The translations under genes were made by a program, and so were the position numbers. 64,000 nucleotides of DNA from Yimella lutea. GTDB lineage: Bacteria > Actinomycetota > Actinomycetes > Actinomycetales > Dermatophilaceae. This document shows, piece by piece, positions 29,654-42,126 of this stretch (the first letter of the stretch is position 1; each line of letters starts with the position of its first letter). The notes beneath the pieces were generated by a model, which did no database searches, was not told the origin of the DNA, and worked only from the letters and a program-made list of their open reading frames with translations. The DNA is taken from contig NZ_VFMO01000001.1 of assembly GCF_006715095.1 (NCBI RefSeq), forward strand, positions 558,001 to 622,000, written 5' to 3'.

Positions 29654-30307
29654 ATGCGAGTCGACCATGTGGTTTATGCCGCTGAGGCCGAGGGCTTGAT
29701 CCCCACGGCGAAGCGTCTGGGGGAGGCGCTGGGTGTCGAACCCGGCGACAGCGGGGTTCACCCCCGCTTCGGAACGCGCAACGTGATCATCCCGTTGGCG
29801 AACCGGCGTTTCATCGAGGTCGTCGAGGTGCTCGACCACCCGGCGTCCGACAAGGCACCGTTCGGCCAGGCCGTCCGCGCCCGTTCCGAGCAGGGTGGCG
29901 GCTGGCTGGGCTGGGTCGTCGAGGTTGCCGACATGGGGGCCGCCGAGAAGCTCGTCGGTCGCACCGCTGCGCCCGGCAACCGGCACCGTCCGGACGGCAC
30001 CGAGGTCACCTGGACACAGTTGGGTGTCAAGGGTCTGATGTCCGATGCTCAGGTGCCGTTCTTCATCGCGTGGGACGGCAACGCGCCGCACCCGTCCGAG
30101 ATCGGCGACACCGCTGCCGACCTGAGGGCAATGACCATCGCCGGTTCGCCCGACCGCGTGCGTGAGTGGCTCGGTCTGCTCGGTGAGCCGGGCGTCGACC
30201 GCGACGAGTGGGAGCCCGACATCGACTTCGAGTTCGTCGCGCCGCACGGCACGCCCTGCGTCCTGTCGGTCACGTTCGACACACCCGGCGGACGCGTCGA
30301 GATCTGA
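29654..30307 (+). CDS. Glyoxalase-like (VOC superfamily) protein
   Basis: A 217-residue protein of the glyoxalase-like group with paired beta-alpha-beta units: MRVDHVVYAAEAEGLI at the start, IIPLANRRFIEVVEV, then a second half ending in CVLSVTFDTPGG. It probably binds a metal and a small substrate, but the reaction is unknown. ATG 29654 matches the usual N-terminus of this family; the frame is open back to 29546, which would add 36 residues unlike the family. A terminator follows. Confidence 0.75.
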   Translation: MRVDHVVYAAEAEGLIPTAKRLGEALGVEPGDSGVHPRFGTRNVIIPLANRRFIEVVEVLDHPASDKAPFGQAVRARSEQGGGWLGWVVEVADMGAAEKLVGRTAAPGNRHRPDGTEVTWTQLGVKGLMSDAQVPFFIAWDGNAPHPSEIGDTAADLRAMTIAGSPDRVREWLGLLGEPGVDRDEWEPDIDFEFVAPHGTPCVLSVTFDTPGGRVEI

Positions 30308-30313
30308 TCAACC

Positions 30314-30346
30314 ACGAACCCCGTCTCCCGATGAGGCGGGGTTCGT
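30314..30346 (+). terminator. Stem-loop terminator
   Basis: Perfect arms ACGAACCCCG and CGGGGTTCGT around a 13-nt loop, just after the VOC gene and before the csoR promoter. Confidence 0.8.
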
Positions 30347-30367
30347 CGTTCTCGGCCCACCGTCGAA

Positions 30368-30393
30368 ATACCCCGGAGGGGTATAGTGACTGC
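30368..30393 (+). promoter_or_regulatory. CsoR operator with overlapping -10 box
   Basis: The 17-bp palindrome ATACCCC-GGA-GGGGTAT (30368-30384) matches the G/C-tract operator bound by CsoR-type copper repressors. A -10 box TATAGT (30382-30387) overlaps its right end and lies 6 bp before the csoR ATG, so the csoR message is probably leaderless and self-repressed. Confidence 0.85.
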
Positions 30394-30675
30394 ATGGTTG
30401 GTTACACCGGGACCAAGGACGACTACCTCAAGCGGCTACGCCGGATCGAAGGTCAGGTGCGCGGCATCCAGCGCATGGTCGAGGACGACACCTATTGCAT
30501 CGATGTCCTCACTCAGGTCAGCGCGATCACCAAGGCGCTGCAGGCAGTCAGCCTCGGGTTGCTGGAGGACCACATCGGACACTGCGTCGTCGACGCTGCC
30601 CGTGAATCGGACGAGGCCGCCCAGGCCAAGGTACGGGAGGCGTCCGACGCCATCGCACGCCTCGTGAAGAGCTGA
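30394..30675 (+). CDS. csoR: Copper-sensing repressor CsoR
   Basis: A 93-residue all-helical repressor. The Cu(I) ligands are visible as C35 (DDTYCIDVL), H60 and C64 (EDHIGHC), the same spacing as characterised CsoR proteins. The N-terminal KDDYLKRLRRIEGQVRGIQRM helix is the DNA-binding face typical of the family. It should release its operator when Cu(I) binds. It is followed after 15 bp by copZ. No copper ATPase gene is adjacent, which is unusual. Confidence 0.95.
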   Translation: MVGYTGTKDDYLKRLRRIEGQVRGIQRMVEDDTYCIDVLTQVSAITKALQAVSLGLLEDHIGHCVVDAARESDEAAQAKVREASDAIARLVKS

Positions 30676-30690
30676 CGAAGGAGAATTCCA

Positions 30691-30903
30691 ATGGAAACCA
30701 AGAAGATCACCGTCTCGGGCATGACCTGCGGCCACTGCGTGGGTGCGGTCACGGAAGAACTCACGTCGATCGACGGTGTGCAGGACGTGCAGATCGACCT
30801 CGTCGCCGGCGGTGATTCGCCCGTCACGATCACCAGTGACGCCCCGATCGCGGACGCCGACATCGCGGCTGCTGTCGACGAGGCGGGCTACCAGCTCGCC
30901 TGA
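30691..30903 (+). CDS. copZ: Copper chaperone CopZ (HMA domain)
   Basis: A 70-residue heavy-metal-associated domain with the metal site M11-T-C13-G-H-C16. The beta-alpha-beta-beta-alpha-beta pattern fits copper chaperones. It hands Cu(I) to export ATPases or to CsoR. A good ribosome-binding site (GAAGGAG) precedes the ATG. It shares the copper-controlled transcript of csoR. Confidence 0.93.
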   Translation: METKKITVSGMTCGHCVGAVTEELTSIDGVQDVQIDLVAGGDSPVTITSDAPIADADIAAAVDEAGYQLA

Positions 30904-31114: not shown

Positions 31115-31657
31115 TCAATCAGCGAGTTCTTCCGGAAGTTCGGCCACCTGCAACGCGCACCACGGACTCACGTCGCGTTCGCCGGAGAGCACCTGTGAAC
31201 GGAAGGCGGCCCAGTCGTGCCACTCGATGGCGGCGACCTCAGCCGGGTCGGGGCTCAGGTCGTCCGGCTCGGTGCAAACGGCGACGTAGACCGGACAGAC
31301 TTCGTTCTCGACGATTCCGTTGTCCATCACCGCGCGATACCGGAAATCCGGTAGAGCCGGGCGGAGATCGGTGAGTTCGATGCCGAGTTCTTGGCGGGTG
31401 CGGCGCCGGACGGCGTCCTCGACCGACTCGCCAGGAGCAGGGTGGCCGCAGCAACTGTTCGTCCACGCACCGGGCCAGGTCTCCTTGCGCAGCGCCCGTT
31501 TGGTCACCAGCACGCGTCCGGACTCATCGATGACGTAGCAGGAGAACGCAAGGTGCAGGGGTGTCGATTCGTTGTGCACCTCGCTCTTGGGGCAGGTGCC
31601 GACGGCGTTGCCGTGCTCGTCCAGCAGGACGACTTCTTCAATGGTCTGTGCAGTCAT
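31115..31657 (-). CDS. idi: Isopentenyl-diphosphate isomerase type 1
   Basis: A 180-residue NUDIX-fold enzyme that interconverts IPP and DMAPP. The catalytic cysteine lies in TNSCCGHP and the catalytic glutamate in the segment NGIVENEVCPVY; RALRKETWPGAWTN is also conserved. ATG at 31657 has a strong ribosome-binding site (AGGAGG) and overlaps the stop of the PAP2 gene (ATGA). It is the last gene of the carotenoid operon and raises DMAPP supply for CrtE. Length is normal. Confidence 0.94.
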   Translation of the reverse strand: MTAQTIEEVVLLDEHGNAVGTCPKSEVHNESTPLHLAFSCYVIDESGRVLVTKRALRKETWPGAWTNSCCGHPAPGESVEDAVRRRTRQELGIELTDLRPALPDFRYRAVMDNGIVENEVCPVYVAVCTEPDDLSPDPAEVAAIEWHDWAAFRSQVLSGERDVSPWCALQVAELPEELAD

Positions 31658-32532
31658 CTGCTGCCTCCTGAACTCGGGATACGGAGTACTGGTGCGTTCG
31701 GTGCCGGGCTCGGCGAAGGTGCTGAGGTGCTGGACGGACGCAGCTTCCGGCTCACCGCGATCGCGACGACGGCGACCAGCCAACCGACAAGCACATCAAT
31801 GACGTAATGCTCTGCGGTGAGCACGAGCGTCACTGCCATTCCCACGACGTAGGTACCGAGCAGGACGCGTCCGCGTCGTCCGAAGTGGGGCGCGAGGAAC
31901 AGCGCCACCAGCAGCGCGGCTCCGGCGTGAAGCGACGGCATCGCCGCTACCGGGTTGCTGCCGTCCTGCAGACGTTCGAGCAGCTGCCCGATCGGTCGCA
32001 GATGCAGGTAGTCCCAGCCGCTGGCCGAGGTGCGAACGACCGGTCCGATCTCACCGCGGTCCGACGCCCACCACGGCGGCGCGGCCGGGTAGAGCACGTA
32101 CCCGGCCATGCCGAGGGTGCTGAAGACCAGGACGGCGCCGATCCAGCGCGTGAACCGGGCGCGGATGCGGAACCACGCCACCGCCGTCACCAACGGGATA
32201 CCCATGAAGTGGGTCACATAGATGACCGACGCGACGGCGTCGTACCAGTGCGGTTCCCCCGTCGCGAAGTGCTCCTGCATCCAGACGGTCGGCACCGCTG
32301 CGAAAAAGCTGCGGTCGACGTCCGCGGGGCCGGAAACCTGCAGTCCGATGCCGATGCGGTTGGTGGCGTGGGTCGGGTCGTCGAGCAGCGGCGCGGTGAT
32401 CCAGTGGGTGAGCGCGTACCCGATCAGGATGAGGGACAGCGGCGACAGCGCGATCAGCAACTGGGCAATGGGCCCGTGCCGCGTTGGTTCGACCTTTCGC
32501 TCGGCCGTCGGGGTCACGGTCGAATTCGTCAT
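31654..32532 (-). CDS. PAP2-family membrane phosphatase in carotenoid operon
   Basis: A 292-residue membrane protein with about six helices. The phosphatase motifs AAMPSLHAG and AEHYVIDVLVGW supply the two catalytic histidines of the PAP2 family; the arrangement resembles the inositol-phosphorylceramide-synthase-like branch. It overlaps both neighbours by ATGA, so it is a true member of the carotenoid operon. Possible roles are release of a lipid phosphate (prenyl or undecaprenyl) or a transfer step in carotenoid decoration; sequence alone does not decide. The C-terminal tail is Ser/Pro-rich. Confidence 0.82.
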   Translation of the reverse strand: MTNSTVTPTAERKVEPTRHGPIAQLLIALSPLSLILIGYALTHWITAPLLDDPTHATNRIGIGLQVSGPADVDRSFFAAVPTVWMQEHFATGEPHWYDAVASVIYVTHFMGIPLVTAVAWFRIRARFTRWIGAVLVFSTLGMAGYVLYPAAPPWWASDRGEIGPVVRTSASGWDYLHLRPIGQLLERLQDGSNPVAAMPSLHAGAALLVALFLAPHFGRRGRVLLGTYVVGMAVTLVLTAEHYVIDVLVGWLVAVVAIAVSRKLRPSSTSAPSPSPAPNAPVLRIPSSGGSR

Positions 32533-33011
32533 CGCGCCCGCCGCAGGAGTGGCTCAGTGCGGAAGCGGTTGTATCGCTGAATCGCTATGAACGGCAGGTT
32601 GATCGCAATCCCGTACCCGATGAGCACGGCAGCGATCGCGGGCGGGTTCCACAGCATGAACACCGGGCCGGCGAGCATCGCCCACCAGTGGCCGAGTTCG
32701 GCGCGGCGGGTCTCGCGGACGAACAGTTCCAGACCGGATTTGTCGAGGGCTGGCAGCTCGCGTTTGCTGACCCCGCCTGCGAACAGTGCGCCGGCCTCCG
32801 GCAGAGCGTCCTTCCACCGGTTGATCCGCAGCCGGCGGCGGTACCAGCGTCCGCCCTGCTCGAAGGCGAGCGGGCGCAACAGCCGGTGATCTCGGGCGAG
32901 CCACTGCGGGGTGAGTCGGTGGGCTGCGTATCCCGTCGCCGCATGGATGACACCCCAGGCGGCGATGTCGGCCAACACGGTCCAGCCCTGCGGCATGACG
33001 TAGTCGAGCAT
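32529..33011 (-). CDS. CrtO-like glycosyl-carotenoid acyltransferase
   Basis: A 160-residue membrane protein similar to glycosyl-4,4'-diaponeurosporenoate acyltransferase, the last enzyme of staphyloxanthin synthesis. The recognisable block is LRINRWKDALPEAGALFAGG followed by SKRELPAL. The two end segments are hydrophobic (IAAWGVIHAATGYAA, and PPAIAAVLIGYGIAINLPF). It would add a fatty acyl group to the sugar placed by the neighbouring CrtQ-like enzyme. It overlaps the GT gene by one base (TGATG) and the PAP2 gene by four. Confidence 0.78.
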   Translation of the reverse strand: MLDYVMPQGWTVLADIAAWGVIHAATGYAAHRLTPQWLARDHRLLRPLAFEQGGRWYRRRLRINRWKDALPEAGALFAGGVSKRELPALDKSGLELFVRETRRAELGHWWAMLAGPVFMLWNPPAIAAVLIGYGIAINLPFIAIQRYNRFRTEPLLRRAR

Positions 33012-34105
33012 CACGCCCCCAACCGCACGGTCCGCCCGCGCCAGCGCACCGAGCCACGCAGGGTGTTCACGGTGGAGATTGCGAACAACAGGTCGAAGGT
33101 CAGGAGGGGCAGCGGGAACAGTGCCCAGGTCCACCAGCGGAAGGACCCGACACGGCGCAGAATGACCCGGAGTTGGAGCGCGAACACCACCCACGCGAGC
33201 AGCCATATGCCTGCGTCAAGAGCCTCGTCAGCCGTCCACATGGCGAGCAGTGTGTTCACGGCGACGAGGTGGTGGGCGCAGATCCACAGCCCGGTGGCAA
33301 GGCCGGCCCGCGGATCAGTGGCGGCTGCACCGGACGCCATGTTCTTGGTCCATCCGGCGACCAGCTGTCGAATCCCGTTGGGATAGCTGCGCATTCGGAT
33401 CTGCGAACCACCGGCAACGCAGTACACCGACAGCCCGGCCTTCTCGTAGGCGGCTGCCAGTTCGACGTCGTCCAGGATCTCCCCACGCACCGCTGCGTGC
33501 CCGCCTGCGCGCTCGTAGTCGTCTCGGGAGGTGAGCAGGCAGGGGCCGAAGGCCATCGGACGTCGTCCGACTCCGGACGCGAACACACCGCTGGCCATCA
33601 CCGCGACGGCGTTGAAGTATGCCGACAGTTGCTCATAAGTGCGCTGCACCCGGTGGTACGGCTGCACGGAGATCAGGCCGCCGAACCTTCGATGCAGGTC
33701 GACGATGCCGCCGAGGGCGCCGGACGCGAGCACCGTGTCGGCGTCCAGGAACAGCAGTAGTTCCGCGTCGGTGGAGTTGGCTCCGACGTGACAGGCCCAC
33801 GCCTTGCCGGTCCACCCCGGCGGAGGGGTGCCGGGCGAGATCACCTCGACGCCGGCCTCGCGGGCGAGGGCGACCGTCGCATCCGTCGATGCGTCGTCGA
33901 TGACGAGCACCCGCACCGGGACGGTCGACCGGTCCAAGGATTCGAGTAAGGCCGGCAAGGAGTTCTGCTCGTTGCGAGCCGGGATGATCGCGCACACGTC
34001 ACCGGCGGCGCTTCCGCTCGCAGCGACGACGCGGAACCGGAGCATCAGCCCGTAGCCGGCGAGTACGGCGGCGACGAGCACCACCGCGTACAGCACCTCA
34101 AGCAT
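33011..34105 (-). CDS. CrtQ-like carotenoid glycosyltransferase
   Basis: A 364-residue membrane-bound GT2 enzyme. One N-terminal helix is followed by a GT-A domain: CAIIPARNEQNSL, LVIDDASTDAT, the PPPGWTGKAWAC segment typical of 4,4'-diaponeurosporenoate glycosyltransferase, LLFLDADTVL, and DDVELAAAYEKAG. Three C-terminal helices complete it. In staphyloxanthin synthesis CrtQ esterifies a carotenoid carboxylate with glucose; here the acceptor must be a C40 product. It overlaps the P450 gene by 8 nt. Confidence 0.82.
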   Translation of the reverse strand: MLEVLYAVVLVAAVLAGYGLMLRFRVVAASGSAAGDVCAIIPARNEQNSLPALLESLDRSTVPVRVLVIDDASTDATVALAREAGVEVISPGTPPPGWTGKAWACHVGANSTDAELLLFLDADTVLASGALGGIVDLHRRFGGLISVQPYHRVQRTYEQLSAYFNAVAVMASGVFASGVGRRPMAFGPCLLTSRDDYERAGGHAAVRGEILDDVELAAAYEKAGLSVYCVAGGSQIRMRSYPNGIRQLVAGWTKNMASGAAATDPRAGLATGLWICAHHLVAVNTLLAMWTADEALDAGIWLLAWVVFALQLRVILRRVGSFRWWTWALFPLPLLTFDLLFAISTVNTLRGSVRWRGRTVRLGA

Positions 34106-35477
34106 GGTGATCCGCAGGAGTCAGTCGCAGGGGCATCCCGCCGCGCGGATGCACAGCAACGAGCGTCTCCGGCTCCGGCCGCGTCCAGCCCGGAGGCGTG
34201 TCGAGCCGGTAGGACGACAACAGTTCGCCGATCACCACGAGCATCTCGCCGAGCGCGAAGTCACGTCCGATGCACAGCCGCGGACCCTGTCCGAGCGGGA
34301 TGTAGCCCGATGTCGGAGCGCCCTGGATGAATCGCTCCGGCCGGAATTGCGTTGGCTCGGGCCAGGATTTGCCTCGTCGGTGCAACAGCCACGGGCTGAT
34401 GATCGCCAATGTGCCTGCCGGGAGGTCGACGTCGCCGACCCGCTCGGCAGCGAGTGAACGCCGGGAGATCGCCCAGGCAGGCGGGTACAAGCGCAGAGCC
34501 TCGTCGATGGCCGCACGGGTGATCGGCAGTTGCTCGCGGGGGGTCAACATGGAAACCGGCGAACCGAGCGCGCCGAGTTCGGCGCGCATCCGATCCTGAA
34601 TCTCGGTGTGCTCGGCCAGCAACATGAGCGTCCAGCTGAGCGCGGCGGCGACGGTCTCGTGACCGGCGATCACCATCGTGATCAGTTCGTCCCTGATCTC
34701 GACGTCGGTGAGCTCGCTGTCGATGAGCAGACCGAGCAGATCGTCGCCGTGAAAGTCAGGCGTCGAGGGCGCGGCGGTCCGGCGTCGAGCGGCGATGATG
34801 TCGACAGCCACCGCGTCGAGTTCCCTCCGCGCCGAACGCAATCGGAGGTTCGTACGGGTCGGCGCCCACTGTGCGGTCGGCAGCACCGATCGACCGAGGC
34901 GGACGATGAACTCGGCCGCGGCGCTGGATGCGTCGAGGAGGCGTTCGGTGCTGGCGGTGAGGTCGCTGGAGAAGATGGCACGGCCGACTGCGTCCAGGCC
35001 GATGCGATGCATCAGCGGACTGACGTCGACGACGGACCCCGAGTGGGCAGTAGGGTTTTGATCGGCAAGGACGGTGCGTGCGGCGTCACGCACCTGCTCG
35101 CTGACTGCCTCCAGACGCCGGCGGTGGAAAGCCGGCGCGGCCAGGCGTCGGTGCTCGATCCAGTTCGGTTCGGCGCAGGCAAGCAGGCCGGGCCCGGTCA
35201 CCCGGGCCAGCGCGGCATACTGCACGGTCTGCTTGCCCCAGTTGCGAGCCGAGGTCTGCAGCACCTGGCGAACGTGAGCAGGGTCGTTCAGCAACACGGC
35301 CGGTGCACCGGGCACGGGGAAGGCGACGGTGTCGCCGAAGCGTTCGGTCACCTCGGTCAGGAAGGTGAGCGGGTCGCGACGCACCGACCGAAAGGCACGC
35401 GCCATGTCGGCCGAACTCGGCCCTGGCACACCGATATCGGCCGGTTGCAGCGCTGCCAGCCGGGCAGCGAGATTCAT
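34098..35477 (-). CDS. Cytochrome P450 in carotenoid operon
   Basis: A 459-residue P450. The oxygen-activating I-helix reads TMVIAGHETVAA, the K-helix EALRLYPP contains ExxR, PERF follows, and the heme loop is YIPLGQGPRLCIG with the ligand cysteine. The N-terminal segment GPGLLACAEPNWIEHRRLAA resembles CYP175-type beta-carotene hydroxylases. Its place between the cyclase and the glycosyltransferase suggests that it installs the hydroxyl or carboxyl group that is later glycosylated. ATG 35477 overlaps crtYd (ATGA); the open frame extends 15 codons upstream. Confidence 0.88.
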   Translation of the reverse strand: MNLAARLAALQPADIGVPGPSSADMARAFRSVRRDPLTFLTEVTERFGDTVAFPVPGAPAVLLNDPAHVRQVLQTSARNWGKQTVQYAALARVTGPGLLACAEPNWIEHRRLAAPAFHRRRLEAVSEQVRDAARTVLADQNPTAHSGSVVDVSPLMHRIGLDAVGRAIFSSDLTASTERLLDASSAAAEFIVRLGRSVLPTAQWAPTRTNLRLRSARRELDAVAVDIIAARRRTAAPSTPDFHGDDLLGLLIDSELTDVEIRDELITMVIAGHETVAAALSWTLMLLAEHTEIQDRMRAELGALGSPVSMLTPREQLPITRAAIDEALRLYPPAWAISRRSLAAERVGDVDLPAGTLAIISPWLLHRRGKSWPEPTQFRPERFIQGAPTSGYIPLGQGPRLCIGRDFALGEMLVVIGELLSSYRLDTPPGWTRPEPETLVAVHPRGGMPLRLTPADHHA

Positions 35478-35806
35478 GCCGATGCCTTCTCCCGACGTCC
35501 CGACCAGACCCAGACCGCGCAACTGGTGAGCACCAACGCGAATCCGAAAGCGAGGTCCTCGACAGGGGCGAAGAGAAGGCGTCCACGTCCGAACGCTACG
35601 ACCTCGGAGTCGCCGATGATGACGTCAGGGTTGTACTGCACGATGCGGCGGCCGGTCAGCCAGCCGTTGGTCAGGATCTGGAAGAACACGATGATCGCGT
35701 ACGACAACCACCACGTGCGGGACGTGGTCAGCCGGGTGCGCAGACCCCAGCGGTCGACAGCGATGCTCGCCACGACCCCGAGGACGGCCAGGACGGTGTA
35801 CGACAT
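35474..35806 (-). CDS. crtYd: Lycopene cyclase subunit, CrtYd/CrtYf type
   Basis: A 110-residue three-helix membrane protein of the heterodimeric lycopene cyclase family. The segment FFQILTNGWLTGR and the acidic VEDLAFGFALVL near the end match the second subunit. Together with the upstream subunit it closes a ring on lycopene ends. Beta versus epsilon ring type cannot be read from the sequence. One-base overlap (TGATG) with crtYc. Confidence 0.85.
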   Translation of the reverse strand: MSYTVLAVLGVVASIAVDRWGLRTRLTTSRTWWLSYAIIVFFQILTNGWLTGRRIVQYNPDVIIGDSEVVAFGRGRLLFAPVEDLAFGFALVLTSCAVWVWSGRREKASA

Positions 35807-36171
35807 CAGCGTTCCTGTCCGTCGGCCGGGTCACGTCGGACCGTTGCGCGAATACCGCCGTGGCGCAGGACTGTTCGGACCCCTTCGAAGGTGATGACGC
35901 TGACGATGGGGATTACGACGAAGAAGAGGATCTCCTCCGGTGGCAGACCGCCGATACGCCAGGGCAGGGTCTGATCGGCGTCGAACCACCAGTGTCCGGC
36001 GTGGGTCACCAGCACGTCCCAGATCAGGAACGGAGTTCCGGCGAGGACCACGGTGAGCAGCAGCCGGCGCCACCTGCGGCCCAGCTCCAGCCCGAACGCG
36101 GGGATCAACGGCAGCGTCGCGCCCACGCAGAACACCAGCATCGCCAGGTAGGCGAAGCGTTCGAGACTCAT
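35806..36171 (-). CDS. crtYc: Lycopene cyclase subunit, CrtYc/CrtYe type
   Basis: A 121-residue membrane protein with three helices, the first subunit of the heterodimeric lycopene cyclase. The diagnostic PEEILFFVVIP motif is present (LPPEEILFFVVIPIV near residue 80). ATG 36171 overlaps the crtI stop (ATGA), which settles the start; a longer open frame upstream is a shadow of crtI. No lycopene elongase (UbiA-type) gene is present, arguing against a C50 product. Confidence 0.87.
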   Translation of the reverse strand: MSLERFAYLAMLVFCVGATLPLIPAFGLELGRRWRRLLLTVVLAGTPFLIWDVLVTHAGHWWFDADQTLPWRIGGLPPEEILFFVVIPIVSVITFEGVRTVLRHGGIRATVRRDPADGQER

Positions 36172-37745
36172 CGACCGTCCACCAGGGTCGGGGAACTGGA
36201 CCGATCGCCGGTGAGGCGCTTGAGCACGAGTTCGGCGCTGATCAGGCACATCGGTAGTCCGACGCCCGGCACCGTGCTGGCACCCGCGTAGTAGAGCCCG
36301 TCCACTTTCGACGACACGTTCGACGGGCGCAGGAAGGCGCTCTGGCGCAGCGTGTGCTCCAGACCGAGCGCGCCGCCGCGCCAGGCGTTGTAGTCGTCGG
36401 CGAAGTCGGCGGGACCGATGGTGTGCCGCACCAGGATTCGCTCCCGCAGATCGGGTACGTCCGCCCACTGCGTAATTTGGTCGATGGCCGCATCGACGGC
36501 TCGCTCGACCTGCTCGTCGCCGGTGCCGTCCGGGCCGCCGTGGCCGATCTCGGTGTCGGCAGGGACAGGAATCAGCACGAACAGGTTCTCGTGCCCCTCG
36601 GGGGCCACGCTCGGGTCGGTCGCCGACGGCTTGCAGACATAAATGGACGCGGGTTCGGGGACGCGCGCAGCTTTGCCGAAGATGTCGCCGAAATTCTGTT
36701 TCCAGTCCGCGGTGAAGAACAAGGAGTGATGTGGCAGCTGCGGCATCTCACCTTCCACACCGAGGAGGGCGAGCACCGCACCGGGCCCGGGTGAGCGCTT
36801 GGTCCACGCCTTCTCCGGGTGGGTCTGCTGCTTCTCGGGGAGCAGGGTGGTCTCCAGGTGGTGCAGATCGGTCGCACCGACGACGACGTCGGCCTCGATC
36901 ACGGACGCTGCGCCATCCGCGCTGAGGTGCTCGACGCCGGTCACGGTGGGCTTGGCGGACCCGTCGGTCAGAATCCGGGTGACAGCCGAGCCTGTGTGCA
37001 ACCGGGCTCCGTGCTTCTCGGCAAGCGCCGCGATCACGCGGATGAGTTCGGTGAAACCACCCTGTGGGTAGAGCACCGATCCGGCGATGTCGAGCCGGCT
37101 CATCAGGTGGTACATGCTCGGCGTGCGATCCGGTGAAGAACCGAGGAAGACCGCCGGGTATCCCAGGATCTGACGAATTCGGTTGTCGCTGAAGCGGTCC
37201 GCGACGAACCCTTCGAGCGACTGGGTCAGCAACCGGGATAGTTTCGGACTGCGCCGGATGACGTCGGTGCCGAAGAACGACGCCGTCGAATCGAAGTTGG
37301 AGTAGAGGAAGCGGCGCATCGCCATGTCGTACGTGTCCTGCGCCGACGACAGGTAAGCGTCCAGGCTCTTGCCCGCGCCCGGCTCCAGCGACTCGAAGAC
37401 GGCCCGGTTGACATCGCGGTCCGGACGGACGTCGACGGACTCGGGGTGATCCTGGAAGAACACTCGATAGCTCGGGTCGAGCCGGACCAGGTCGAGTTCA
37501 TTCTCGACGGTGGTGCCGAGAAGCTCGAAGAAGTGCTCGAACACTTCGGGCATCAGGTACCAGGACGCGCCGGTGTCGAACCGGAAACCGTCCCGCTCCA
37601 GGCTGCCGACGCGGCCGCCCAGTACGTCGTTCTTCTCCAACAGATCGACGTCGTGGCCCTGGGCCGCGAGCAGACCCGCAGTGGCCAGACCGGCGATCCC
37701 ACCACCGATGACCACGACCCGTCGCGAACCGGTACCCGCCGTCAT
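36168..37745 (-). CDS. crtI: Phytoene desaturase CrtI
   Basis: A 525-residue FAD-dependent desaturase. The N-terminal dinucleotide fold is VVVIGGGIAGLATAGLLAA followed by EKNDVLGGRVG; the C-terminal signature is LYYAGASTVPGVGLPMCLIS. It turns colourless phytoene into lycopene or another desaturated product; the number of desaturation steps is not evident. Both ends overlap neighbours by ATGA. Typical length. Confidence 0.95.
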   Translation of the reverse strand: MTAGTGSRRVVVIGGGIAGLATAGLLAAQGHDVDLLEKNDVLGGRVGSLERDGFRFDTGASWYLMPEVFEHFFELLGTTVENELDLVRLDPSYRVFFQDHPESVDVRPDRDVNRAVFESLEPGAGKSLDAYLSSAQDTYDMAMRRFLYSNFDSTASFFGTDVIRRSPKLSRLLTQSLEGFVADRFSDNRIRQILGYPAVFLGSSPDRTPSMYHLMSRLDIAGSVLYPQGGFTELIRVIAALAEKHGARLHTGSAVTRILTDGSAKPTVTGVEHLSADGAASVIEADVVVGATDLHHLETTLLPEKQQTHPEKAWTKRSPGPGAVLALLGVEGEMPQLPHHSLFFTADWKQNFGDIFGKAARVPEPASIYVCKPSATDPSVAPEGHENLFVLIPVPADTEIGHGGPDGTGDEQVERAVDAAIDQITQWADVPDLRERILVRHTIGPADFADDYNAWRGGALGLEHTLRQSAFLRPSNVSSKVDGLYYAGASTVPGVGLPMCLISAELVLKRLTGDRSSSPTLVDGR

Positions 37746-38608
37746 CGCAGGTCCTGACGAACGGCATTGCCGGCGATGCGCAGCTTGACGTGTCCGGGCA
37801 CACGAACCCGTTTGCGTCGGATCTGCTCGGCCGGCGTGGCGCGTAGACGGACGCCTAGTTCGGCGAACGTGTCGTGTGCGGCCTGGACGGCTCGTCGGCT
37901 GGACGGCGGGAGGTGGTCGATGGCGTTCTGGGCGGCCGCGAGGTCGGCGTCGATGTCGTTCAGGATGCGGTCGCGATCGGCGTCGGTGAAGTTGTCGGGG
38001 TCGACCCCGGGGAAGTAGCCACGGTCGAGGGTATCCGTGTCCTGGGCGAGGTCGCGCAGGAAGTTGATGTTCTGGAACGCGGCGCCGAGCCGTCGCGCTC
38101 CCGGCGCCAGTTCGTCGTACCGCGCGGACCGGTCCGTCTCGGTCGCCAGGAAGACCCGCAGGCACATCAACCCGACGACCTCCGCCGACCCGTAGACATA
38201 ACGGTCGATGCTTTCGAGGGTGTGCGGTGCGGGGTCGAGGTCACGCGCCATCGATGCGAAGAAGGGGTCAATGAGGTCATCGCCGATGTCGCAGGCCCGA
38301 GCGGTCAGCGCGAAGGCGTGCACAATGAGGTTTGCGCTGTAGCCGGTGACCAGGGACTGGCGGACGTCGGCGAGGAGCGCGTCCAGCATGGCCGAGCGCT
38401 CGGTGCTGCCCAGGTCCGCATCCGGGTTGTCGACGATCTCGTCGGCGATCCGGACCAGTGCGTACACGTTGCGGACGTGGCCGCGCACCGGCTCACGCAG
38501 TAGCCGGGATGCCATCCCGAACGAGCTGGAATACCGGCGGATCACCAGGTCGGCACCGGCCCGGGCCACCGAGTCGTAGAGCTCGTTCGTGCCGTGAACA
38601 CTCCTCAT
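37742..38608 (-). CDS. crtB: Phytoene synthase CrtB
   Basis: A 288-residue head-to-head prenyl synthase joining two GGPP molecules. The first aspartate-rich motif is in VRIADEIVDNPDADL and the second in NFLRDLAQDTDTLDRGYFP. SSSFGMASRLL near the start is also conserved. It follows crtE with an ATGA overlap, and the pairing with a GGPP synthase indicates a C40 rather than C30 pathway. Confidence 0.94.
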   Translation of the reverse strand: MRSVHGTNELYDSVARAGADLVIRRYSSSFGMASRLLREPVRGHVRNVYALVRIADEIVDNPDADLGSTERSAMLDALLADVRQSLVTGYSANLIVHAFALTARACDIGDDLIDPFFASMARDLDPAPHTLESIDRYVYGSAEVVGLMCLRVFLATETDRSARYDELAPGARRLGAAFQNINFLRDLAQDTDTLDRGYFPGVDPDNFTDADRDRILNDIDADLAAAQNAIDHLPPSSRRAVQAAHDTFAELGVRLRATPAEQIRRKRVRVPGHVKLRIAGNAVRQDLR

Positions 38609-39687
38609 GCCGCTTCGCTGTCGTCGAGCAGCAGGGTGAGGCTGTCGGTGATGATCGACGGCAGTTCCGTGGGCAGGCCGAGCGCCGTGATGTGCGCCTG
38701 CGCGAGGCGCAGGTGCTCGTGCATCAACCCGGTCGCGAACTCTCGGGAGCCGTTTCGGGTCAGCAATCGGCGCACTTCTGCCAGCTCGGCGTCGCCGAGG
38801 TCGCGTCCGAGATGACTGTCGATCTCGTCCCACTCGTCGGTGGAACGTGCGTGGCTCAGCAGCGGGGTCTGCTTGCGGGTGCGCAGATCGCAGGTCGTGC
38901 TCTTACGGGTCAGATCCGGATTGCCGAACACACCCAGCAGGTCGTCGGCGAGCTGGAAGGCGACGCCAAGGTGTCGTCCGACGACATCGCACTCCTGCAC
39001 GATGTCGGGTCCGGCACCTGCGAGCAGCGCGCCCGCCTGCAACGGAAGGGAGAAGGAGTAGGCGCTCGTCTTGTGTTCTGCCATCGCCAGGCTGGCGTCG
39101 GTGGATGCCGGTTCCAGTCCGAGCGAGAGGCGGACGTCGGCCAGTTCGCCCGCGGTCGTGATCTGCAGCGCAGTGTCGAACAGGTCGAGCAGACGGTTCG
39201 TGACGGCGGGGGAGACGCCGCAGGTGGCGATCGCGCGCAACGCCGTGGCCATGGCCAGGTCTCCGGCGAGAATCCCTGCGGTGAAGGCGAGTTCGGCGGC
39301 TGCGTCCTCGTCCGCGCCGTGCTCTCGAGCCCAGGTGCGGAAGGTGCCACTGACGTTCGGACGCCCGCGACGGATGTCATCCCCGTCGATGACGTCGTCC
39401 TGGATGACGAAGGCGGTGTGCAGTAATTCGATCGCCGCACCGACCTGTGCGACAGCCTCGTGCTCGGTGCCGTCGAACGTGTCGTGAGCGGCACGGACGA
39501 GAGCCGGCCGGAATCGCTTTCCTCCGATGCTCGCGTCCTCGAGTGCATTCCACAGACGCGTGTGGTCCGGGCTGCTCAAAGCGGCCCTGCTGCGCCCATC
39601 CCCGAGCATCGCCGAAAGGGCCCGGTCGGCGGCCGCGGTGTCGCGCCAATGACAAGCAGCCGGCCGAGTACCGGTCTGAGTGGCCAT
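38605..39687 (-). CDS. crtE: Geranylgeranyl diphosphate synthase CrtE
   Basis: A 360-residue trans-prenyltransferase. GGKRFRPALV opens the active site; the first Asp-rich motif is QDDVIDGDD and the second is DDLLGVFGNPD, in which the last Asp of DDxxD is Gly, as in many actinobacterial CrtE proteins. It makes GGPP for CrtB. A good ribosome-binding site (AAGGAG) precedes the ATG, and it is the first gene of the ten-gene carotenoid operon. Confidence 0.93.
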   Translation of the reverse strand: MATQTGTRPAACHWRDTAAADRALSAMLGDGRSRAALSSPDHTRLWNALEDASIGGKRFRPALVRAAHDTFDGTEHEAVAQVGAAIELLHTAFVIQDDVIDGDDIRRGRPNVSGTFRTWAREHGADEDAAAELAFTAGILAGDLAMATALRAIATCGVSPAVTNRLLDLFDTALQITTAGELADVRLSLGLEPASTDASLAMAEHKTSAYSFSLPLQAGALLAGAGPDIVQECDVVGRHLGVAFQLADDLLGVFGNPDLTRKSTTCDLRTRKQTPLLSHARSTDEWDEIDSHLGRDLGDAELAEVRRLLTRNGSREFATGLMHEHLRLAQAHITALGLPTELPSIITDSLTLLLDDSEAA

Positions 39688-39734
39688 CGAGTCTCCTTGG
39701 TCGTGGATTTCTCAGACTGACCGCCGTGCCATCA

Positions 39735-39756
39735 AGATGTCAAAGCTTTGTCCAAG
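39735..39756 (-). promoter_or_regulatory. Candidate CarH-type operator and -35 of carotenoid operon
   Basis: On the minus strand, CTTGGACAAAG (39756-39746) and CTTTGACATCT (39745-39735) are abutting 11-bp direct repeats sharing CTTkGACA. The second contains a perfect -35 hexamer TTGACA (39743-39738), 51 bp before the crtE start. CarH photoreceptors bind tandem 11-bp direct repeats over the -35 region, so this is a good candidate site. A clear -10 is not visible. Confidence 0.5.
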
Positions 39757-39797
39757 GTTTCGCACTGCTGTCGCACGCAAGGGGTTAGGTTGAGCCG

Positions 39798-40691
39798 GTG
39801 GCCAATGAACCTAGCATGCGGATCGGGCGCCTCGCCGAACTCGTCGGCGTCTCGAGCGATGTACTGCGCGTATGGGAGCGCCGGTACGGGCTGTTCGAGC
39901 CCGAGCGCACGCCCGGAGGATACCGCCTGTACTCCGAGGCCGACCTCGACCTCGCACGCAGGGTGCTCGCCTTGCGGGAGAAGGGCGTGCCGATTTCGGC
40001 CGCCGTTTCCGCAGTCACCCAGGGCCGACCGATTCGCTCGGCGAGCGCGGAGCAGGGGTTGCGACTGCGCCGCGAACTCGATTCTGCTGCAGGTGAATTC
40101 GACGAGTTCACGTTCGTGTCGGTGCTCGACCGCGCTATCGACGAGTTCGGTGTCGCCGATACCATTCACGACATTCTGATGCCGCACCTGCAGCAGGTGG
40201 GCACGGAATGGGAAGCGGGTCGGATCAGCGTCGCGCAAGAACACTTCGTCAGCCATATCGTTCGTCGAAGGGTCGGCTCGCTGGCCAGGCTGGTGGACGA
40301 CGCGGACGCTCCCATCGCGGTGCTGGCCTGCCCGCCCAAGGAGTTGCATGACATCCCGCTGCTCGCGCTCGGCGTCCTGATGTCCGATGCCGGATGGCGG
40401 GTGCGTTACCTCGGGCCCAACACCCCGCTGAAGGACCTCTACGGAGCATGCGAACGACTCGACCCCGACCTCATCATCATGTCGGGCACCCGGCGCACCG
40501 TCTTCGAGGCCCGTGCAGGAGCCCTGCGTCGGCTCTCGCAACGCTGGCCGATGGCCATCGGGGGACGAGGCGCGACGCCCTCGGTCGCCGCCGTGATCGG
40601 TGCCGACCGCTTGCCCGAACACCTCCGAGACTCAGCCGAATTCCTGCTGACGTCCCGGGATCAATATCGTCGGCCCGCCGCCGGTCAGTAG
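39798..40691 (+). CDS. MerR-family B12-binding regulator (CarH/LitR type)
   Basis: A 297-residue regulator divergent from the carotenoid operon. An N-terminal MerR winged helix (MRIGRLAELVGVSSDVLRVW, ERRYGLF) is followed by a four-helix cap and a cobalamin-binding domain. The photoreceptor signature W-x9-E-H is present in EWEAGRISVAQEH, and the lower-ligand motif reads E-L-H-D-I-P with the histidine kept but the usual Asp and Gly changed. CarH/LitR proteins repress carotenoid genes in the dark with adenosylcobalamin and release DNA in light. GTG 39798 chosen; ATG 39816 is possible. Confidence 0.87.
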   Translation: MANEPSMRIGRLAELVGVSSDVLRVWERRYGLFEPERTPGGYRLYSEADLDLARRVLALREKGVPISAAVSAVTQGRPIRSASAEQGLRLRRELDSAAGEFDEFTFVSVLDRAIDEFGVADTIHDILMPHLQQVGTEWEAGRISVAQEHFVSHIVRRRVGSLARLVDDADAPIAVLACPPKELHDIPLLALGVLMSDAGWRVRYLGPNTPLKDLYGACERLDPDLIIMSGTRRTVFEARAGALRRLSQRWPMAIGGRGATPSVAAVIGADRLPEHLRDSAEFLLTSRDQYRRPAAGQ

Positions 40692-40743
40692 ACACTCCCG
40701 GCGTCTGCCGGTCCGTTCACCACGATTGCCTCGGAGGAAGCTT

Positions 40744-42126
40744 ATGAGCTCGTCCCGTCTTGCCCTGGTCACCGGAGCAACCGGCCACGTCGGCGGCCGT
40801 TTGGTGCCGGCACTCCTCGACGCGGGTTTCCGCGTGCGGGTGCTCAGTCGTCACCCCGATTCACTTGCGTCGGCATGGGCCGAGCGCGTGGAGGCAGTCG
40901 AGGGTGACGCTTGCGAACCTGCTGACCTGGCGAAGTGCCTCGCCGACGTCGATGTCGCGTACTACCTGCTGCACTCGATGGACGGCGAGGGTGACTTCGA
41001 GGAACGCGACCGAAAAATGGCGTCCAGATTCGCCTCTGCTGCAAGGAAGTCCGGCGTCGACCGGATGGTCTACCTGAGCGGACTGCACCCCTCTGGCGAA
41101 TTGTCGCCGCACCTCGCATCGCGGGTGGAGGTCGGCAAGATCCTGCTCGCCTCCGGTGTGCCGACCGCCGTGCTGCAGGCCGGCACCGTGATCGGCGAGG
41201 GATCGGCGTCCTTCGACATGCTGCGTCACCTGTCCGAGCGACTGCCGCTGGTCATCGCTCCCCGCTGGCTGAAGAGCAAGATCCAGCCGATCTGCGACGA
41301 CGACGTCATCCATTACCTCGTCGGCGCGGCTGACTTGCCGCAGGAGGTGAACCGCGCCTTCGACATCGCCGGCCCGGACGTGCTCACCTACGCCGACATG
41401 ATGCGCCGGTATGCGTCCGCAATCGGGTTGCCAAAGAGGCGGATTGCGACCGTTCCGGTGCTCACGCCGAACCTCGCCGGTCATTGGGTCGGGCTCGTCA
41501 CCCCCGTGTCGGCAGGGGTCGCCAAGCCGTTGGCCGGGAGCCTGGTGCATGACGCAGTTGCATCGGAGAACGACATCGACGAGTACGTGTCACCGCCCGA
41601 GGGTGGACTCGCCGGGTTCGAGGAATCGGTGCACCGCGCGACCAAGGACGTCGACACCCGCGCGTGGTCGCGTTCGGTCAAGACCTCCGCGGCGATCGTG
41701 GGGGTAACAGCCCTTGCGGGTTCGTTGCTGACCGACCCGAACAGCCGCTGGTACAAGAGCCTCGACCTGCCGCCGTGGCAGCCGCCGACCTGGGTCTTCC
41801 CGGTCGCGTGGACGACGCTCTACACCACGACCGCGCTCGCGTCCGCCGCGACGATGGCTGAATCGCCTGTGGCGCAGACGAATTCGTACAAGAAGGCGCT
41901 CGCGGTCAACATGGTGCTGAACGCGGGGTGGAGCGGTGTGTTCTTCCGAGCACACAAGCCCGCGGCCGCGACGGTCGTGGCCGCTGCATTGGCCGTGAGC
42001 AGTGCCGACCTGGCCCGACGTGCGGACGTGTCCAACCGCGGCTTGCGTACGGTCGCGCTCGGTGCCTACGCGGCATGGTGCACCTTCGCCACCGCCCTCA
42101 GCGGGGACATCGCCCACCGCAACTGA
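40744..42126 (+). CDS. NAD(P)-binding SDR fused to TspO/MBR domain
   Basis: A 460-residue two-part protein. Residues 1 to about 290 are an atypical SDR/NmrA-like domain with LVTGATGHVGGRLVPALLDAG and YYLLHSMDGEGDF. Residues from about 320 to the end are a five-helix TspO domain, marked by WYKSLDLPPWQPPTWVFPVAW and later hydrophobic helices. TspO proteins bind tetrapyrroles and respond to light or oxidative stress. ATG 40744 has a strong ribosome-binding site (GGAGGAAG). It follows the CarH-like gene by 52 bp and is probably in the same light-response unit. Confidence 0.85.
   Translation: MSSSRLALVTGATGHVGGRLVPALLDAGFRVRVLSRHPDSLASAWAERVEAVEGDACEPADLAKCLADVDVAYYLLHSMDGEGDFEERDRKMASRFASAARKSGVDRMVYLSGLHPSGELSPHLASRVEVGKILLASGVPTAVLQAGTVIGEGSASFDMLRHLSERLPLVIAPRWLKSKIQPICDDDVIHYLVGAADLPQEVNRAFDIAGPDVLTYADMMRRYASAIGLPKRRIATVPVLTPNLAGHWVGLVTPVSAGVAKPLAGSLVHDAVASENDIDEYVSPPEGGLAGFEESVHRATKDVDTRAWSRSVKTSAAIVGVTALAGSLLTDPNSRWYKSLDLPPWQPPTWVFPVAWTTLYTTTALASAATMAESPVAQTNSYKKALAVNMVLNAGWSGVFFRAHKPAAATVVAAALAVSSADLARRADVSNRGLRTVALGAYAAWCTFATALSGDIAHRN

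Follow-up and report, generated by a model that had tools for sequence, protein, structure and literature searches.

A ten-gene carotenoid operon of Yimella lutea that probably serves the synthesis of a thermozeaxanthin-like pigment

In the genome of Yimella lutea (3.53 Mb, one contig), we analysed a stretch of 64,000 nucleotides (NZ_VFMO01000001.1, positions 558,001 to 622,000), which is called the window below. A carotenoid gene cluster of ten genes occupies the minus strand from 31115 to 39687, in the order crtE-crtB-crtI-crtYc-crtYd-P450-GT2-CrtO-PAP2-idi, where P450 is a cytochrome P450 gene and GT2 is a family 2 glycosyltransferase gene. Its content suggests an operon for a ring-hydroxylated C40 carotenoid glucoside fatty-acid ester similar to the thermozeaxanthins of Thermus, which we consider the probable reading. 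The genes and the domain matches behind their names are as follows.

38605..39687, minus strand: crtE, polyprenyl (geranylgeranyl) diphosphate synthase, 360 amino acids; PF00348 141 bits, no NCBIfam equivalog over cut-off.
37742..38608, minus strand: crtB, phytoene synthase, 288 amino acids; PF00494 121 bits, no NCBIfam equivalog over cut-off.
36168..37745, minus strand: crtI, phytoene desaturase, 525 amino acids; TIGR02734 558 bits, cut-off 238.
35806..36171, minus strand: crtYc, lycopene cyclase subunit, 121 amino acids; TIGR03462 60.9 bits, cut-off 39.4.
35474..35806, minus strand: crtYd, lycopene cyclase subunit, 110 amino acids; TIGR03462 36.6, under the cut-off of 39.4; orthologues adjoin crtYc in relatives.
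34098..35477, minus strand: cytochrome P450, probable carotenoid ring hydroxylase, 459 amino acids; PF00067 222 bits.
33011..34105, minus strand: CrtQ-like GT2, 364 amino acids; PF00535, and E 4e-55 to the GT2 in the CrtQ position of Staphylococcus equorum.
32529..33011, minus strand: CrtO-like membrane acyltransferase, 160 amino acids (161 with a GTG start at 33014); PF18927 104 bits.
31654..32532, minus strand: PAP2_3-family membrane protein, accessory, 292 amino acids; PF14378.
31115..31657, minus strand: idi, isopentenyl-diphosphate isomerase, 180 amino acids; NF002995 257 bits, cut-off 127.

Neighbouring genes overlap at all nine junctions, by 4 nucleotides (ATGA) at six, by 1 nucleotide (TGATG) at two and by 8 nucleotides at one, and therefore the ten genes very probably make up one translation-coupled operon. 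An earlier note, made from the letters of the sequence alone, had given the same coordinates, the same gene order and nearly complete ATGA or TGATG coupling; the domain matches bear out the former, and eight of the nine overlaps are of these two kinds.

The same note had described a C40 ring-forming core without an elongase, which holds: CrtE and both cyclase subunits are present, and the Pfam domains of the window genes reveal no UbiA elongase gene in the cluster. Two UbiA (PF01040) proteins are encoded elsewhere in the genome (C1:871836 and C1:2421155), both far from the cluster. The CrtYd subunit scores just under cut-off with two models, TIGR03462 and also PF18916 (26.1 against 27). Of 119 genomes of the order, 56 contain a match to CarR-type cyclases, and the 30 loci returned from these 56 genomes were compared by neighbourhood and tree. 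In 16 of the 30 an open frame with a UbiA-type motif, called by the motif only and not by a family search, directly follows the cyclase pair. These 16 elongase-linked loci are one clade (support 98/100), outside which the window pair falls, in the clade of the P450 clusters (98/98). The actinobacterial C50 clusters share crtI and a split CarR-type cyclase pair with the window, but they carry an elongase-like frame right after their CrtYe/CrtYf-type pair, which the window cluster does not.

The contigs of named genomes were scanned by GT2 alignment, which gave 316 loci encoding a relative, and the best 80 of the 316 were analysed. A P450 gene lies directly upstream of GT2 in 40 of these 80, and of these 40 loci all contain CrtO, 39 contain crtYc, 39 contain crtYd, and 36 contain crtE, crtB and crtI on the same strand. 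Among the remaining 40 loci, CrtO occurs in 35 (so that it is found downstream of GT2 in 75 of the 80), while neither a P450 nor same-strand upstream cyclase genes occur in any; both cyclase genes in L102 and a crtYc-like gene in L086 stand in the other orientation. Most P450 carriers are titled Nocardioides (29 of 40), and the others are Kribbella, Knoellia, Flexivirga, Lapillicoccus, Aeromicrobium, Occultella and metagenome-assembled genomes (MAGs) of Nocardioidaceae (one), Dermatophilaceae (one) and Actinomycetota (two). The order crtE-B-I-Yc-Yd-P450-GT2-CrtO is kept in the relatives G001, G002, G007, G012 and G023. In Occultella (G036) crtE-B-I is separate and divergent from the rest of the cluster, and in L053 and L073, whose stretches show no crtE, crtB or crtI, the crtYc-crtYd-P450-GT2-CrtO cassette is intact. 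The comparison of gene order proposed in the earlier note thus finds the same arrangement in Nocardioides, Dermatophilaceae and others, and its recurrence is more than chance. Our search of the open-licence literature in PubMed Central (PMC), which does not cover subscription journals, found no paper on the cluster or its product among the titles and abstract beginnings listed.

Some observations concern the movement of the cluster. In the two nearest relatives, L021 and L046, the cluster outside PAP2 is about 97% identical to the window in DNA. L046 belongs to a MAG (G012) placed in another genus of the family, so either horizontal transfer or a binning error is behind this identity. Besides, G002 contains its own divergent cluster (about 70% DNA identity) plus a relic at L212:5356-6557, where a P450 piece is joined to an idi piece, both about 97% identical to the window in DNA, which suggests that the cluster has moved between lineages.

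The two transferases are judged to be relatives of the CrtQ/CrtO pair of S. equorum. The window GT2 aligns over the full length with the CrtQ-position GT2 of an S. equorum plasmid (32% identity, 177 bits, E 4e-55), while it reaches 80 bits with the Thermus GT2, 70-86 bits with crtI-linked GT2s and about 40 bits with two background GT2s. In the GT2 tree, the CrtO-paired GT2s, including that of S. equorum on a long branch, fall in a 44-row branch of weak support (89/23); the GT2 of Thermus groups separately with those linked to crtI (100/90), and the P450-linked GT2s make up a clade of their own (100/98). The CrtO-like protein matches PF18927 over positions 2-123 of 123 (104 bits, cut-off 27.3), and S. 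equorum CrtO scores 97 bits with this family. The alignment shows that 11 of 13 CrtO positions invariant in 49 relatives are also kept in S. equorum CrtO, and the CrtO tree repeats the P450 grouping (85/91). PF18927 is uncommon, being matched in 14 of 296 genomes of the phylum (13 over cut-off) and in none of the 14 control genomes, Thermus composti included. Bit scores, tree and conserved positions therefore uphold transferases of the CrtQ/CrtO kind, and the outcome that the earlier note named as fatal to its proposal, transferases placed in unrelated families, did not occur. Staphylococcal CrtQ and CrtO work on a carboxyl group, whereas for the window pair, although it is kin to them, a ring hydroxyl is the better guess. 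The GT2-CrtO pair is also seen in cyanobacteria of the Cyanobium/Synechococcus type (e.g. L090, L106, L113) and in L128, with no match to the other crt proteins of the window nearby.

What, then, supplies the oxygen function? Genome-wide, no crtI-family protein but that of the cluster passes the cut-off of the family model, and no CrtP-like oxidase was found with this model; since the protein in the CrtP position of S. equorum scores 328 bits with it, such an oxidase would have been detected. Because there is this single crtI-family protein, the P450 is the likely oxygen source, in agreement with the earlier note. Pfam counts five P450s in the genome including the cluster gene, and only the cluster P450 matches the window P450 at E <= 0.001. 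Haem-ligand Cys402, AGHET at 271-275, E326 and R329 are invariant in an alignment of 27 rows. In a tree with eight other P450s, the window protein is placed together with Thermus CYP175A1 (90/89), which of the sampled P450s with a known role is the closest to it; CYP175A1 is a known beta-carotene hydroxylase in the passages on this enzyme in PMC5015936. What suggests ring hydroxylation by the window P450 is the logic of the pathway and the gene linkage, to which this tree adds modestly.

Two further lines on the P450 were tried and dropped. In a PDB ranking, the best named matches of the window P450 are CYP97A3 and CYP175A1, the latter fourth, but a control P450 of Chroococcidiopsis, from a 13-kb stretch without annotated carotenoid genes, also gives 7wzl and CYP97A3; therefore the ranking is not specific and was rejected as proof of ring hydroxylation. 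CYP175A1 is not among the 60 PDB matches listed for the control. As for homologues outside the cluster, P450s at E <= 1e-60 occur in 65 of 394 genomes of the class. Of the tier with less than 50% identity, we read 22 short loci and 21 wider stretches, the latter being 17 from a set of 18, whose remaining member is the G002 relic, and 4 others. They contained no crt cluster; the sole crt-like signals were a 45-residue match to the flavin adenine dinucleotide motif of crtI (L199/L220) and a 27-residue CrtYd-like match (L223). This tier neither helps nor names a substrate and was rejected as independent evidence.

From the gene content, order and family kinship observed, we propose a pathway whose enzymatic steps are all predicted, as are the number of rings, the position of the hydroxyl, the sugar and the acyl chain. 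Idi and CrtE would make geranylgeranyl diphosphate, two molecules of which would be coupled by CrtB to phytoene, and CrtI would desaturate phytoene to lycopene. The CrtYc/CrtYd pair would then close one or both beta-type rings, the P450 would hydroxylate the ring, probably at C-3 as CYP175A1 does, the CrtQ-like GT2 would place a sugar, probably glucose, on the ring hydroxyl, and the CrtO-like acyltransferase would esterify the sugar with a fatty acid.

Among working systems, the thermozeaxanthin cluster of Thermus comes closest to this scheme. Genes of T. thermophilus, CruC and CruD included, are assigned to thermocryptoxanthin and thermozeaxanthins in the part of PMC4021367 that deals with them, where the glycosyl and acyl steps are filled in from reactions of S. 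aureus and Halobacillus. On a plasmid of Thermus brockianus (L126), we found MerR, crtB, phr, a P450, a CarR-type cyclase, a PlsC-type acyltransferase, GT2, crtI and fni; this P450 is a CYP175A1 orthologue (515 bits to 1n97). Both systems have a C40 lycopene core, a CarR/CrtYcd-type cyclase, a P450, a GT2 and an acyltransferase in one cluster, together with an isopentenyl diphosphate isomerase and an adjoining MerR-B12 regulator, and their P450s group together, as noted above. They differ in that in Thermus the acyltransferase is of the PlsC type (PF01553), the GT2 belongs to another branch, the cyclase is in one piece, the isomerase is of type 2 and a photolyase gene is present, whereas the window has the CrtO-type PF18927 protein, a CrtQ-type GT2, a split cyclase, a NUDIX-type idi and crtE inside the operon.

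The S. equorum staphyloxanthin-type C30 cluster (L127) contains the homologous CrtQ-position GT2 and CrtO, as well as NAD(P)H-binding and TspO genes nearby as in the window. It differs by a synthase and a crtI-family gene in the CrtM/CrtN positions and a second crtI-family protein in the CrtP position, and the annotation of its 10-kb stretch lists neither CrtE nor a cyclase or P450. The window cluster, with CrtE, the cyclases and one crtI-family protein over cut-off in the genome, is not of the staphyloxanthin type. For Methylobacterium extorquens, the sections of PMC10448405 on its C30 genes report a glycosyltransferase and an acyltransferase, with deletions showing that the sugar is added first and then the acyl group; the differences are a C30 diacid, a PlsC-type acyltransferase and, within those sections, no CrtO homologue found. 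Since the glucoside that this PlsC-type enzyme acylates is a C30 one, the type of acyltransferase is not necessarily tied to the length of the backbone. Cyclic C40 carotenoids that bear hydroxyl, sugar and acyl groups are an established class of products, known from Thermus according to the material cited above. Hence the combination stressed in the earlier note is unusual only in part: a ring-hydroxylated C40 carotenoid with sugar and acyl group was already known, and what is unusual here is only the CrtO-type acyltransferase (and the CrtQ-type GT2) on such a backbone.

Several points weigh against a thermozeaxanthin-like product. The P450 sequence is weak evidence of ring hydroxylation: its identity to Thermus CYP175A1 is only about 32%, the long branch of CYP175A1 makes the 90/89 grouping unsure, the control Chroococcidiopsis P450 ranks 7wzl and CYP97A3 top and CYP97C1 fifth in the PDB, and around actinobacterial P450s of 37-47% identity the 21 wider stretches read contain no crt cluster. 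The co-occurrence of P450 and cyclase genes is probably one inherited event and not many, and in L064 the P450 is present but no cyclase genes are seen. In NCBIfam no equivalog model is over its cut-off for CrtE, CrtB or GT2. Finally, the model of the acyltransferase has no clear match among solved structures.

The alternative that survives best, although we regard it as unlikely, is that the P450 hydroxylates or oxidises the ring at C-2 or C-4 instead, or that the cyclase makes a single ring, with a gamma-carotene-based glucoside ester, rubixanthin-like or 2-hydroxylated, as the product. Ring position and number cannot be read from sequence, and a Deinococcus P450 is reported to make 2-hydroxy rings. 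Besides, the clusters from which the sister cyclase clade comes (L136, L139, L141, L144) may make one ring or two, and the one in G027 has two crtI-family genes and a different GT2. Against one ring, the names of carriers that refer to yellow (flavus, luteus, flavescens, flava) weakly favour a bicyclic xanthophyll.

Slightly less likely still is a staphyloxanthin-like ester on C40, in which the P450 would oxidise a ring or chain methyl stepwise to a carboxylic acid, GT2 would form the glucosyl ester and CrtO would acylate it. The kinship with the staphylococcal pair speaks for this carboxyl route, as does a Spartobacteria cluster (L101) which, besides the same pair, encodes an aldehyde-dehydrogenase-like protein and two of the crtI family, the equipment that the route calls for. 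However, no CrtP-type oxidase is over cut-off in the Yimella genome, a search confined to the ten genes gave no aldehyde dehydrogenase, and the P450 co-occurs with the cyclase genes and is closest to CYP175A1 among the sampled relatives with a known role. That the operon makes beta-carotene, with the P450 or the transferases serving another lipid, is very improbable. In its favour, PAP2, which shares the operon, is of another lipid-enzyme family and is dispensable; against it, all ten genes overlap, their order is conserved over several families, and the cassette from crtYc to CrtO is kept where crtE, crtB and crtI are missing from the stretch or lie apart.

PAP2 itself, which the earlier note lists in the operon, was considered as a core pathway step and rejected, as it is missing, displaced or internally deleted in several carriers. 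It lies directly downstream in 31 of the 40 P450 loci, the deleted form of L046 among them, and is absent there in nine; in L053, L063 and L079 the gene is upstream instead. For four of six relatives (G002, G007, G023, G036), no PAP2 match was found in their stretches. In each of the two nearest relatives, a different large internal deletion has shortened the gene, which still is an open frame, of 113 and 120 codons respectively (L021:5429-5767 and L046:11574-11936), with the overlaps to CrtO and idi retained. Among the P450 carriers that have it, PAP2 is well conserved, with PSLH and EHY..D invariant in 11 rows. It appears to be accessory or recently dispensable.

Upstream of crtE, three further features adjoin the operon.

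39688..39797, no strand: divergent promoter region of 110 bp between crtE and the MerR gene; intergenic gap.
39798..40691, plus strand: MerR and B12-binding regulator, CarH/LitR-like, probable light switch, 297 amino acids; PF13411, PF02607, PF02310.
40726..42126, plus strand: NAD(P)H-binding and TspO fusion, 466 amino acids; PF13460, PF03073; adjoins the regulator, pathway link uncertain.

The domains of the regulator are over cut-off, and its best NCBIfam model is CarH (NF052513; 155 bits, under the cut-off of 400); this CarH-like B12 regulator probably switches the operon on in light. A perfect 10-bp palindrome, CAAAGCTTTG, in the promoter gap is a candidate operator for it. The NAD(P)H-binding and TspO parts, fused in the window, are separate genes on the S. 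equorum plasmid (L127:2922-4966), adjoining crt genes in both. Occultella, Kribbella and a Spartobacteria MAG have related NAD(P)H-binding genes close to crt genes as well, and these are also seen near the crt-free P450 locus L208. On the other side, window positions 30208-30903 hold a CsoR-type metal-sensing repressor (PF02583), followed by a small gene that looks CopZ-like and metal-binding by eye only.

In conclusion, we put at about even the chances that a single recruitment in actinobacteria brought the CrtQ/CrtO pair, which is known from C30 acids, into a P450-built C40 ring-hydroxyl route, giving a thermozeaxanthin-like pigment in mesophiles by partly independent enzymes. For many named actinobacteria with the cluster, several type strains among them, this predicts a specific and easily tested product class, and it suggests that a C40 xanthophyll glucoside can be a substrate of CrtO-type acyltransferases. 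It would also add a second natural toolkit for building carotenoid glycolipids. Glycosyl-acyl carotenoids are presented as a heat adaptation in the part of PMC4021367 on Thermus, and the finding bears on whether such pigments are heat adaptations or a general membrane strategy. If it is true, xanthophyll acyl glucosides would be a common membrane pigment of Nocardioides and its kin, not a speciality of thermophiles.

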